Shown here piece after piece: positions 21,365-25,295 of a DNA stretch of 25,295 bases. The notes beneath the pieces were generated by a model. The model was not told where the DNA came from and did not search any database. It worked only from the letters and a program-made list of their open reading frames with translations. The DNA is from a virus: IMG/VR virus record IMGVR_UViG_3300009702_000077, positions 1-25,295 of that record; one strand, given 5' to 3'. The translations under genes were made by a program, and so were the position numbers. How positions within the stretch are numbered: position 1 is the stretch's first letter; each line of letters starts with the position of its first letter.

Positions 21365-21866
21365 TAGTGCCCGGTGCCTCCAACATCTTGCCGCCCTGTT
21401 TCGACTCCAAGCTGTCCACGATATTCGTGAGCTTCTTGGCGTAGTCCAGAAGGTGCCCGTCAACAGGGACGGGTGGACCGTCCGGTTTGATGTTCACTTC
21501 TTGTGAAACGGTGACCTGGACTTCAGGCTCCCTCTTCGCATACCGGTTTGGCCACCGTCGCTCTAGCATCCATGCCGCTGCCTGCCACGACTTGTCCATC
21601 GCTTTGAGGATCTTTCCATGGATGGAGGATTCCGCTTCCGACTCTGCCTTTTCCAGAGCCGTGACAAACTCGGGGTGTCGTTGCTTATGTTTGCGCATCG
21701 TTGCCGCGCTGATTCCATGGATCCGCGCCGCCCTGTCTGGCCAGATTCCGAGCGCCACCGTCCGCAGTATGTCGGTGATCTTCTCGTCCGTCATGACACT
21801 GACTGGTCTTCCGGGTGGGCGTCTCGCCACTTCTTTTCGATCAGGATCTGCTTTTTGGTTGTCCAT
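21342..21866 (-). CDS. terS: Terminase small subunit (174 aa)
   Basis: An N-terminal PPGRP segment is followed by a helix-turn-helix (TDEKITDILRTVALGIWPDR, then ARIHGISAATMRKHKQRHPE), then a helical oligomerisation region (FVTALEKAESEAESSIHGKI), the usual order in phage TerS. The ATG at 21866 keeps the GRP segment, which many TerS proteins have directly before this helix. A shorter start at 21794 (MTDEK, 150 aa) overlaps the ParB-like stop as ATGA and is a real alternative. It lies immediately before terL, overlapping it by 23 bases. It would recognise the packaging site. Confidence 0.8.
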   Translation of the reverse strand: MDNQKADPDRKEVARRPPGRPVSVMTDEKITDILRTVALGIWPDRAARIHGISAATMRKHKQRHPEFVTALEKAESEAESSIHGKILKAMDKSWQAAAWMLERRWPNRYAKREPEVQVTVSQEVNIKPDGPPVPVDGHLLDYAKKLTNIVDSLESKQGGKMLEAPGTNGTTGSA

Positions 21867-22111
21867 GATTTGCGATACTCCACATCTGCGAACAGCTTAC
21901 TGAACCCGGTGATGTGCTTCAGCCGGACTAGCTCCTCAGGCTCCATACCTAGTTCACCACAGATTTCCGCATCCTCCCATCCGTTCTCCAGCATCGAGAA
22001 TACCATGCTGGACATGCCCGCCACGGAGTGAGTCCCTCGCGCCCGGTTGTGCCGAACCGTCGAAGCCATCCTATCATTGATGTCCTTGTCCAGGACGACG
22101 ATCGGGACCAT
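21791..22111 (-). CDS. ParB-like protein, C-terminal part in shifted frame
   Basis: This frame continues the ParB-like protein after the run of eight G. From the ATG at 22111 it reads MVPIVVLDKDINDRMASTVR, then HNRARGTHSVAGMSSMVFSM and a helix-turn-helix-like LENGWEDAEICGELGMEPEE. In intact phage ParB-like proteins the HNRARG segment follows the FHRY block at this distance. The stop overlaps the small terminase region. It may be translated separately from its own ATG, by +1 frameshifting, or represent a broken gene. Confidence 0.6.
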   Translation of the reverse strand: MVPIVVLDKDINDRMASTVRHNRARGTHSVAGMSSMVFSMLENGWEDAEICGELGMEPEELVRLKHITGFSKLFADVEYRKSWTTKKQILIEKKWRDAHPEDQSVS

Positions 22112-22421
22112 CCCCCCCCGTCATCGCCTGGATCTCCTTGTTGGCCTTGCACGAGTAGTATCGGTGGAACCCGTCCACAATGACATACTTCCCGGCCTTC
22201 TCGTCGCGGACGGTCACGATGGGCTGCGTGTAGCCGTCGTGCAGGATCGAAGTCACGAGCAGCTTCATCTCCTTCTGCGCTACCCTGTTCGGGTTGTAGT
22301 CGTTTACCTCTACCACTCCGATCGGGACCCATCGGACCTCCGAGACCGGATGCTTCTTCCGCAGGTCGTCGCTCGAATCGGCGCTGGGGTGCGCGAGGTG
22401 CTGTAGTGCTTCTGCAATCAT
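22074..22421 (-). CDS. ParB-like nuclease/DNA-binding protein, N-terminal part
   Basis: I chose the ATG at 22421 (MIAEALQHLAHPSADS), seven bases after the helicase stop and preceded by GAGAGA; upstream in-frame starts would overlap the helicase. The ParB N-terminal pattern is clear: VRWVPIGVVEVNDYNPNRVA, then ILHDGYTQPIVTVRD and YVIVDGFHRYYSCKANKEIQ. Phages often carry such a gene beside the small terminase. After residue about 103 the frame enters a run of eight G and ends at 22074 in unrelated sequence, while the true continuation is one base out of register. Residues 11-20 are encoded by the 31-base repeat shared with the gpG-like gene. Confidence 0.7.
   Translation of the reverse strand: MIAEALQHLAHPSADSSDDLRKKHPVSEVRWVPIGVVEVNDYNPNRVAQKEMKLLVTSILHDGYTQPIVTVRDEKAGKYVIVDGFHRYYSCKANKEIQAMTGGDGPDRRPGQGHQ
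22361..22391. repeat. 31-bp exact direct repeat, copy 2
   Basis: Identical over 31 bases, same orientation, to 10524-10554. Here it encodes residues 11-20 of the ParB-like protein (HPSADSSDDL), in a different frame from the copy in the gpG-like gene. Confidence 0.9.
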
Positions 22422-22428
22422 GATTCTC

Positions 22429-24105
22429 TCAGAAGGGTAGAGGTTTCGTTTCATCGGATCGCTTGCCGACCTCTTCTGGCTCAGGCAAGCGCGCCCAGTA
22501 TTTTCCACAAGGCTCCAGGAGGAAGAGTTGCTTCCGAGCCCGGGTCATCGCGACGTAGAACATCCGCGCAAGGTTCTCGGCTGCTTCCGGGTGAGGGTCC
22601 TGCGCCGATGCGTAGGATATGTCCGGGGAGACAATCACCGTTTCAGCCTGCCCGCCTTTGACACTGTGAATCGTGCCGATGATGGTTCGTGGTGGTTCCA
22701 TGAGCGTGTTCATACCATGCCGCTCCAGACAGGCTTTGGCAAACGCCGGCTTCCACGACATCAGTATCGAGTCGAAGAACCACTTCGGACCGATGATCTC
22801 CTGGTCGATCCCGAGGATCGCTGCGATGTCACCCTTCCCCACGATGAGATTCCTCTCCGACTTGCTGGTGCCCGCGTCCTTGATTGATTTCTTCGTCTCT
22901 GCTCGTGGCAACCTCTTCCAGTCCAAGGGGGCCACGAAGGTAGCAAAGTCCTCCATCGTCCACCGGGGTTCCGGAGAGTAGCCTTCCAACCCACGAAGGA
23001 GCGCGCGTAGAGCTTTCAAGACCGGATTCTTCGCAGTGTTCCACCCTCCACGGCCAGCCTTGTAGGGGTTGTGATAGAGGATCCCTCGCTTCCGGAGAGC
23101 CTTCGCCACCGGGCCGAGCATGTAGGAACAGGATGCCAGGAGCATCACTTGCCCTTCGGTGTCCCGCTCAAGCTCTCCCTCCACGAAGTCCGCGAGTAGG
23201 TCCCCTTGATCCCAACCGAACTCGAGACCTTCGACGCATCCTCCCTCCTCGTGTGGCTGAAACTCCTTGACCTTCCGGCGGGTCACGCGATCCACGATGT
23301 AGTCCTCGGTGTAGTCCTTGATCACGGACGGGAGCCGGTAGCTCCTGGAGAGGATCTTCTGCATCTTCTCCTCAATCGGGGGGTCAAGCATGATCCCGGC
23401 GGTTCCCCCTCGGAAAGAGTAGATCGCTTGATCGTCATCGCCGGCCAGCACCAGCATGCTCGCCTCGCTCCCCCACCTCCGGACGAGCTGCGCCTCAAGC
23501 GGCGTCAAATCCTGAGCCTCGTCCACGATCAAGTAGCGGATGTGATCCGGCAGGCTGCCGGCCTGCTCGATCATGTCCGTAAAGTCGATGGCCCCGTGCT
23601 CCTGCTTGAACTCCTCCCACTCCCGAGCCCACTCCCGCAGCTCCTCGGACTCAGCCCAGATCCGATCCTCATCCCGGCTGTCCAAGAGGAGATTCCGGAT
23701 CCTGGAATAGTGCCCCATGAACTTCCCGGATCCGGTCATCACCGTGGAGAGATCCGCCGCCCCCTTCGCGTCGATGAGCCACTCCGGGCCGACATCGAGC
23801 CACTGCCGGTTCCAGGTGTCCACCAAGGGAGCCACCTCCGCGATCTCAACCCGGGATTCACTCGTCGAGTAGGCAAGCCCGTGGACAGTCTTGCACTGGC
23901 TCCTCGGGATCGTCACCCCGTAGGCGTTGAGCTCCAGGTCGACTCGGCCAGCGATCTCAATCGCCCCGGTGTTCGTGAAGGATGCAATCGCGATCGACTG
24001 CGGCCCCTCCCGTCTGGCAAGCCGTGCGATCTCGGAAACTAGAAACGTGGTCTTGCCGGTGCCCGGCGGACCGAAGACGCGGAACTCTCTCAACGTGTCG
24101 CTCAT
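22429..24105 (-). CDS. SF1 UvrD/Rep-like DNA helicase (558 aa)
   Basis: All main SF1A motifs are present in order: Walker A FGPPGTGKTTF (residues 11-21), Ia ASFTNTGAIE, II YLIVDEAQDLTP (DEAQD at 195-199), III AGDDDQAIYSFRGG, IV LSRSYRLPSVI, V GTIHSVKGGQAETVIV and VI FYVAMTRARKQLF. This is an ATP-driven DNA helicase of about usual phage length, likely in replication or recombination. I chose the ATG at 24105, just upstream of the Walker A. An earlier GTG at 24162 would lie inside the inverted repeat arm and add a poly-Thr stretch. No convincing ribosome site precedes 24105; five ACC triplets lie there instead. The stop is seven bases from the ParB-like start. Confidence 0.9.
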   Translation of the reverse strand: MSDTLREFRVFGPPGTGKTTFLVSEIARLARREGPQSIAIASFTNTGAIEIAGRVDLELNAYGVTIPRSQCKTVHGLAYSTSESRVEIAEVAPLVDTWNRQWLDVGPEWLIDAKGAADLSTVMTGSGKFMGHYSRIRNLLLDSRDEDRIWAESEELREWAREWEEFKQEHGAIDFTDMIEQAGSLPDHIRYLIVDEAQDLTPLEAQLVRRWGSEASMLVLAGDDDQAIYSFRGGTAGIMLDPPIEEKMQKILSRSYRLPSVIKDYTEDYIVDRVTRRKVKEFQPHEEGGCVEGLEFGWDQGDLLADFVEGELERDTEGQVMLLASCSYMLGPVAKALRKRGILYHNPYKAGRGGWNTAKNPVLKALRALLRGLEGYSPEPRWTMEDFATFVAPLDWKRLPRAETKKSIKDAGTSKSERNLIVGKGDIAAILGIDQEIIGPKWFFDSILMSWKPAFAKACLERHGMNTLMEPPRTIIGTIHSVKGGQAETVIVSPDISYASAQDPHPEAAENLARMFYVAMTRARKQLFLLEPCGKYWARLPEPEEVGKRSDETKPLPF

Positions 24106-24108
24106 GAT

Positions 24109-24123
24109 GGTGGTGGTGGTGGT
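24109..24123 (-). repeat. Triplet repeat (GGT x5 on +; ACC x5 on -)
   Basis: Five perfect GGT units on the + strand stand three bases from the helicase ATG. They occupy the place where a ribosome binding site would be expected. Confidence 0.85.
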
Positions 24124-24144
24124 TTTCTCGGTCAGGACAGAACG

Positions 24145-24285
24145 GCCTTTTAACGCGCACACGGGGAGCTATCTCATATCTTTCGAAATCTACTGTATAT
24201 AAGGTATGTTTGCCTCGCCGATATTCGCGAGAAATCCTCGATTTTGAAAGGTATGAGATCCTTTCCCGTGTGCGCGTTAAAAGGC
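24145..24285. repeat. Long imperfect inverted repeat in the helicase upstream gap
   Basis: The + strand at 24145-24165 (GCCTTTTAACGCGCACACGG plus one G) is the exact reverse complement of 24265-24285, a 21-base perfect stem. Pairing continues inward over 24166-24190 with 24240-24264 (19 of 25 matches). Four of the six mismatches become G-U pairs in + strand RNA; the other two form one small internal loop. A 49-base AT-richer spacer (24191-24239) separates the arms. No U-run follows either arm, so it is not a simple terminator. It fills almost all the space between the upstream stop and the helicase leader. Confidence 0.9.
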
Positions 24286-24295
24286 AGTTCCGGTG

Positions 24296-25295
24296 TCATC
24301 GTAGATCCTCATCGGACAGGTCGAGCCTCAGATCCTCGGCCCGAACCAAGTAGACTTTCCGGCCCCCCTTCTTGTCCTCGCCGTCGAACTGGGATCGGTT
24401 GACCCAAACCTGGGATCCGTCGATGGACAGCTCCCGCAGGACCGTCCCGAGCCCCTTGGAAGGGGCCGCTCCCTTGAGAGACTCCTTCGCCCAGCTCAAC
24501 GCGAACCCGACGTAGAGCTCCATCCCCCGCTTGACCGCGATCGGATTCCCGGACATGAGAGCCTGATTGAACGCCCGGGCTGCCCCTCGTTTCTTCGCAT
24601 CCTCGTCCGTGTCCACCAGAGAAGGATGCTTCTTAGGCACTGTGACGGCCAGGAGGTCCCCCAGGGCCTCTTGGACCTCCTCCGCGACTGTCGGGCCGCG
24701 CTCCCGCGCCGATGCCAGGAGGTCCACCAGGGCCTCCCAGTCCTTCGGTTTGAACTTCGGTATGAAGATCGGGGGAATCGCGCCCCGGTGCGCTCGCCTC
24801 ATTACGGGCTGACTCTGGAAGTTGCTCACGCGAATCGGATCGCTCCCCTTGTAGTGGAACAGGGAAACCCCGTCCTCCCCATCCCCGTGGAAAACAACCC
24901 TTTCGAGGTCCTGGTGAAAGACCTTCTGGACCAACCCGATCGCATTCTCGCCGGCTGCGGCCTTCTTGGCCGCCGTGGATACGGGTGTCTGAGATGCCAG
25001 CTCGTCATCCCGGGCCGCCTGGAGCCGCTTCCCCTTGAGGGTCGGGTCATCGTGGACGACGCTTGCCGTAGCGGAAACCGACTCTGCCGCCCCGGCAACG
25101 TCGATGCTCATATCGGCCAGGATCGACGCGAGGAGCCCCACGCTCGCCCCGGACCGGACAGCCCAAGCCGTGAGCTTGGACGCCGTGGCCTCGCTGGTGA
25201 CCTTGTAGGCGTCCCGGAGGATCCCTTTGAGATCCTTATCGCCCTGCTTCAACTCGTTCAGGACATCCCCGGCAATCGGGGACCATTCTCCAGCC
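24296..25295 (-). CDS. Unidentified protein, N-terminus outside window (at least 333 aa)
   Basis: The frame is open to the right edge (first full codons read AGEWSPIAGDVLNELKQGDK), so the true start lies beyond the window; a TTG at 25252 is only an internal codon. The sequence is helical and Ala/Lys/Glu-rich. The middle part has FHGDGEDGVSLFHYKGSDPI, and two EALxDLLA helices lie 22 residues apart (KDWEALVDLLAS, VQEALGDLLAV). The C-terminus (GLGTVLRELSIDGSQVWVNR) resembles a winged-helix tail. I do not recognise a family. Position upstream of a helicase makes a replication protein C-terminus possible, at low confidence. Confidence 0.65.
   Translation of the reverse strand, partial: AGEWSPIAGDVLNELKQGDKDLKGILRDAYKVTSEATASKLTAWAVRSGASVGLLASILADMSIDVAGAAESVSATASVVHDDPTLKGKRLQAARDDELASQTPVSTAAKKAAAGENAIGLVQKVFHQDLERVVFHGDGEDGVSLFHYKGSDPIRVSNFQSQPVMRRAHRGAIPPIFIPKFKPKDWEALVDLLASARERGPTVAEEVQEALGDLLAVTVPKKHPSLVDTDEDAKKRGAARAFNQALMSGNPIAVKRGMELYVGFALSWAKESLKGAAPSKGLGTVLRELSIDGSQVWVNRSQFDGEDKKGGRKVYLVRAEDLRLDLSDEDLR
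24648..24736 (-). repeat. Two 23-bp near-identical direct repeats
   Basis: The + strand 24648-24670 and 24714-24736 differ at one base in 23, spaced 66 bases (22 codons). On the minus strand both encode EAL(V/G)DLLA in the same frame of the unidentified gene. Confidence 0.8.

Follow-up and report, generated by a model that had tools for sequence, protein, structure and literature searches.

Stem-loop origins 3' of primase genes have already been described. In pRN1 a stem-loop of about 100 bp, located 54 bp downstream of the primase-helicase gene, is required for replication: it comprises a 21-nt stem and a 58-nt loop, and its structure is conserved while its sequence is not (PMC4234260). A similar stem-loop has been proposed as the origin of phage BIP-1, the genetic test of an origin having been made in pRN1 only (PMC4234260). 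SaPI origins, as summarized in PMC7581432, adjoin the 3' end of rep and are made up of multiple short iterons to which the C-terminus of Rep binds; in the SCCmec Cch2 system binding remains intact after deletion of the inverted repeats (PMC7581432). RSF1010 carries one primase initiator on each strand, ssiA and ssiB (PMC4434180), and Ppol of Thermus ICETh2 is dispensable for the replication of that element (PMC7693054).

The locus reported here lies in an IMG/VR record that was analysed over its entire length (25,295 bp; hereafter the window), is probably a genome fragment, and has all of its evident genes on the minus strand. An inverted repeat occupies most of one intergenic region (Table 1). 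As in pRN1 and BIP-1, the structure is a large non-coding stem-loop just 3' of a gene of putative primase type, here starting 5 nt past the stop codon; a perfect 21-nt stem is found in both pRN1 and the window, and the pRN1 loop of 58 nt compares with a spacer of 49 nt. Sequence is not conserved between relatives in the pRN1 family, and the pRN1 protein has a C-terminal winged helix. However, whereas an SF3 helicase domain is part of the proteins of pRN1 and BIP-1, the window has a separate gene for a UvrD-like SF1 helicase, and the catalytic half of the presumed primase falls outside the record. If the repeat is an origin, it would thus differ from those already described in its separate SF1 helicase, in its longer and imperfect arms, and in having no iterons.

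Likenesses to two other systems are partial. The SaPI-type origin is also directly downstream of a replication gene, and the C-terminus of the window's protein resembles the winged helix of SaPIBov1 Rep; where SaPI origins have multiple short iterons, the window's gap has none that are significant beyond the arms' own pairing (p 0.08-0.25). Like ssiA and ssiB of RSF1010, the window has an element of roughly 40-50 nt in a presumed replication region and – the arms being inverted – one copy of it on each DNA strand, as the ssiA/ssiB arrangement requires. Each arm copy contains GTG, as does the RSF1010 start site, a triplet too common to be evidence. In contrast, ssiA forms its own small hairpin while the window's two copies pair with each other, and RepC-type iterons were not found in the window.

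Table 1. Positions of the inverted repeat, its parts and the adjoining genes in the window.
Feature	Start	End	Strand	Remarks
UvrD-like SF1 helicase gene, 558 aa	22429	24105	-	ATG at 24105; phrog_1967 E 7e-52; PF00580 E 2e-24
Intergenic region with inverted repeat	24106	24295		Largest gap of the window
Left arm of inverted repeat	24140	24190		51 nt; 44 of 51 positions complementary to right arm
Perfect 21-bp outer stem, left side	24145	24165		Pairs with 24265-24285
Spacer, 49 nt, proposed melting region	24191	24239		43% GC; contains CTCGC/GCGAG hairpin, 24214-24231
Right arm of inverted repeat	24240	24290		51 nt
Perfect 21-bp outer stem, right side	24265	24285		Pairs with 24145-24165
C-terminal part of putative primase-family gene, 332 aa	24296	25294	-	5' end cut by record end; stop 5 nt from repeat

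Geometry and folding of the inverted repeat

The sequence-only reading had described a 46-base inverted repeat with a 49-base spacer and a perfect stem of 21 bases. Arms, spacer, stem and mismatches were all recovered, as was the inner hairpin of the spacer, and the repeat proved longer than described: the 46-bp core (24145-24190/24240-24285) has six mismatches, four of them G-T, and beyond it one mismatch is followed by four further pairs. The repeat is real and far beyond chance, with an ungapped inverted-repeat score of 30: when the entire window was shuffled 400 times with dinucleotides preserved, the highest score was 17, and outside the repeat the window itself scores no more than 13. 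Since the arms are 14% different, fold-back during assembly is improbable, and an artefact of this kind is unlikely. Folding is strongly favored on both strands, as RNA (z -12.5 for the plus strand, -11.1 for the minus strand) and as DNA (z -11.1 and -9.2, respectively, both arms being folded together rather than singly). The gap is the most AT-rich of the window, and the lowest-GC stretch of 100 bp (39%) begins at 24165.

Searches for elements of known type were negative. Neither arm is followed by a U-run (as the sequence-only reading had stated) or by a terminator, so that the GC-rich hairpin and U-run of an intrinsic terminator are not found together; no sigma-70-like promoter was detected within 23900-24500, the search being confined to that type. 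The Rfam 15 covariance models gave no match to the repeat at gathering score and one match at chance level. Integron attC and telomere-resolution sites are, we presume, poor fits to the repeat, given the 49-nt spacer. The repeat is present once in the record, and the arm sequence, exact or similar, was absent from viral contigs and phages; plasmids yielded chance-level matches of 20-30 nt only. A 41-aa open reading frame over the right arm (24177-24299, its start overlapping the upstream stop) was rejected as coding and treated as non-coding because its codon usage lies at about the 1st percentile of the window's genes, its GC3 is low (0.49 vs 0.69-0.80), and credible relatives were not found.

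Genes on either side of the repeat

The helicase gene is followed, on the minus strand, by a ParB-like gene and then by terminase genes. Searches of IMG/VR, phages and genome_contigs revealed no close relatives of the helicase, of the upstream gene or of the ParB fragment, and relatives of the large terminase (59-70% identity) showed no sign of a primase-helicase replication module. A ribosome-binding site is not obvious ahead of the helicase start codon, where five ACC triplets stand (24106-24123); in-frame starts farther upstream fall within the left arm. The ParB-like gene (21791-22508, minus strand) is present as two overlapping frames matching positions 47-134 and 135-243 of phrog_2159, with a run of eight G at the frame break; the break is either an indel, real or introduced by sequencing, or a frameshift site.

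Neither Pfam nor other family searches gave a match for the product of the gene upstream of the helicase, of which 332 aa are available. A profile built from the genes located ahead of the helicase in other phages nevertheless showed a collinear alignment with it across 219 columns (hhalign E 2e-5, probability 77%), and primase or primase-polymerase families are matched by those genes or by their immediate predecessors. Three significant viral fold matches were obtained with an AlphaFold model (mean pLDDT 65): A0A3G8F2A8 (215 aa, the length of the protein upstream of the helicase in Meiothermus phage MMP7; E 8e-10), the phage R5C primase (E 5e-6) and another phage primase (E 3e-5). This evidence is partly dependent on the profile evidence, since the input alignment included primase-type relatives, and a Foldseek search of PDB returned nothing significant. 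Model residues 199-330 match winged-helix chains, including SaPIBov1 Rep and the C-terminus of NrS-1 polymerase, with Z of 4-6: values below 8, and hence suggestive only of a winged-helix-like C-terminus. The product therefore resembles the C-terminal half of phage primases in profile and predicted fold, the catalytic half lying beyond the record end; because the record ends before the N-terminal half, we infer primase activity from these resemblances. An SF3 helicase domain was not matched within the 332 aa.

Repeats 3' of primases in other replicons

No close relative of the primase-helicase junction was found. Among distant helicase relatives, the DNA upstream of the helicase is repeat-rich in six of the eight closest, compared to none of eight in-gene controls: for L018, L019, L022, L023 and L031 the repeat content was matched by 0 of 100 shuffles, and for L017 P was 0.04. 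Among farther helicase relatives the signal fades. The repeats themselves differ from one replicon to another, being GGTAGTCA in Thermus phage Riverbug, TTATGACAA in L023, GGTCTCTCA in L022 and TGTCACAC in phage MMP7. A primase-based survey gathered 47 loci, and from these and the earlier loci taken together 41 were scored. The same helicase lies at most 2 kb downstream of the primase in 28 of the 41, and the 500 bp 3' of the primase are repeat-rich in 24, compared to 4 in-gene controls (mononucleotide shuffles). With a stricter test based on 900-bp stretches, dinucleotide shuffles and clustered primases, 12 of 28 clusters are repeat-rich vs 60 of 475 control stretches (P = 3e-4 with the window left out).

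Some of these replicons carry long inverted repeats. At locus L157 an inverted repeat of 48 bp begins 88 nt past the primase stop; its spacer measures 95 nt and its arms hold tandem GGGTCATGA iterons. In Pseudomonas phages Lodos, Turba and KT1 the primase gene is directly followed by inverted repeats of 22, 22 and 23 nt whose spacers measure 87, 86 and 85 nt (the KT1 sequence differs). These four, with spacers of 85-95 nt and sequences unrelated to that of the window, are like it in having a long inverted repeat directly 3' of a primase-type gene; unlike those of the window, their arms consist of tandem iterons. In Bordetella phages BPP-1 and BIP-1 an inverted repeat at 26607-26710, some 470 nt after the primase, has two TTGCCTCG iterons per arm, and may or may not be the stem-loop drawn in PMC4234260.

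Loci were selected by primase or helicase similarity and not by their repeats; several positives were already known when the enrichment tests were devised, and for this reason their P values, above and below, are descriptive. Inverted repeats with IR >= 18 occur in 4 of 27 primase clusters vs 2 of 424 control stretches (P 1e-4). When only intergenic regions are compared, those with IR >= 14 are found 3' of the primase in 5 of 13 vs 5 of 188 others (P 1e-4), and those with IR >= 18 in 2 of 13 vs 2 of 188 (P 0.02), the window being excluded throughout. Only a minority of primase-linked gaps contain a long inverted repeat. Iteron arrays take its place in most related replicons, and some have neither; Roseobacter phage CRP-901 and several IMG/VR loci have no inverted repeat of this kind 3' of the primase. 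The sequence-only reading had taken relatives with the same junction and no paired arms as evidence against a paired structure, and such relatives do in part exist, several distant primase-helicase relatives having an iteron array instead. Such variation speaks against conservation of an RNA fold and would be expected of an origin with drifting sequence.

A candidate origin and its alternatives

We put the probability at roughly 60% that the inverted repeat is the replication origin of the phage, a stem-loop of the pRN1/BIP-1 type placed 3' of a primase-family gene and 5' of the SF1 helicase gene. Several lines of evidence point this way: the repeat is beyond chance and stands in the largest and most AT-rich gap; the upstream gene aligns with primase C-termini, has a predicted winged-helix-like end, and has an SF1 helicase next door; repeats or long inverted repeats recur 3' of primases in other replicons; and there is precedent in pRN1, which needs the stem-loop 3' of its primase gene, and in SaPI origins, which adjoin rep and are bound by the C-terminus of its product. 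Against it are the prevalence of iteron arrays in related replicons, of which some have neither structure, the want of significant iterons in the window's gap, and the precedents of ICETh2, where Ppol is dispensable, and SCCmec, where Cch2 binding survives deletion of the inverted repeats.

If the repeat is an origin, then the best reading is that the upstream protein binds it. The winged-helix-like C-terminus would attach to both inverted arms, and the AT-rich 49-bp spacer would melt, possibly aided by hairpin extrusion. The primase would then lay primers in the exposed strands – perhaps once per strand, as each carries one arm copy – and the SF1 helicase encoded by the adjoining gene would unwind onward, extending the bubble. 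A broader scheme is conceivable, and we advance it tentatively, considering it less probable than not: in phages with a primase-SF1-helicase replication module, the space between the two genes may be a common site for the origin, whose form could be exchanged from phage to phage, be it an iteron array, a pair of palindromic iterons (L157, Lodos) or one long inverted repeat (the window). The winged-helix C-terminus of the primase would recognize every form, and the window's arms would serve also as primer start sites on opposite strands. Few uncultured tailed phages have a known replication origin. If the origin assignment is true, origins would become predictable from sequence, directly 3' of a primase-type gene and before an SF1 helicase, and the stem-loop origin idea of pRN1 and BIP-1 would extend to replicons with a separate UvrD-like helicase.

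The sequence-only reading had listed an origin alongside an operator, an RNase III processing site and an antisense RNA; the origin has since gained positional and comparative support. Its main rival, which we think unlikely but which could coexist with an origin, is that the AT-rich spacer contains a promoter for the helicase-ParB-terminase operon and that the arms on either side of it are a pair of binding sites for a regulator, which might be the replication protein. Two near-identical inverted copies of 51 nt in the largest, lowest-GC intergenic region, ahead of a long co-directional series of genes, would suit such a role. However, 51 nt is a considerable length for operator arms, the search for sigma-70-like promoters (other types were outside its scope) was negative, and regulation alone leaves the recurrence of repeats 3' of primases unexplained. 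A foldback or MITE-like insertion, landed by chance between two adjoining genes, is very improbable: the repeat does fill most of the gap, and palindromic dispersed elements do occur in terminase relatives, but it is single-copy in the record, its arm sequence was not found in viral contigs, phages or plasmids, and the flanks contain no convincing target-site duplication.

Two further alternatives concern RNA, and for these the mismatches matter. Any transition that arises in a perfect stem leaves G-U in the RNA of one strand and A-C in that of the opposite strand; that all four G-T mismatches of the core should be G-U in plus-strand RNA and A-C in minus-strand RNA therefore has a one-sided probability of 1/16. 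The pattern, noted in the sequence-only reading, holds; the plus-strand transcript that it was thought to hint at is insufficiently indicated by it, the hint being weak. An antisense RNA of the plus strand that folds into the hairpin is accordingly the least probable of the explanations considered, nothing besides the four transitions speaking for it: no plus-strand promoter or terminator was found, and the window has no evident plus-strand genes. A hairpin in the minus-strand operon mRNA that would serve RNase III processing or transcript stability at the junction of the primase-type and helicase genes is improbable to a lesser degree. Its predicted fold is very stable (the z of -11.1 given above) and it fills the gap between two co-directional genes, but all four transitions unpair in minus-strand RNA, which is slight evidence against selection on that fold, and related junctions hold iteron arrays rather than a conserved hairpin.

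Other elements were met in the course of the comparison. In the helicase relatives L019, L021, L022 and L023 the primase is preceded by a conserved protein of about 250-300 aa, which in L023 (1974-2729) matches phrog_23155, a family of unknown function; it could also belong to the replication module. At L031:2610-2759, a 21-nt inverted repeat with a structured-looking spacer of 108 nt, without a credible Rfam match, occupies a gap ahead of an oxidoreductase-like reading frame. Terminase relatives contain a dispersed element that begins with CATTCGCCGGRYGTTCCGG and continues with a stem of about 15 bp, perfect or nearly so and variable in sequence, with an inner hairpin; four of its loci were searched against Rfam and gave no match. 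It is found on several viral contigs (L003:1360, L004:6666-6764, L007:2101, L016:4992-5093 and 5836, L099, L100, L102, L104 and L109), with two copies in L016, and some of its copies fall within reading frames.
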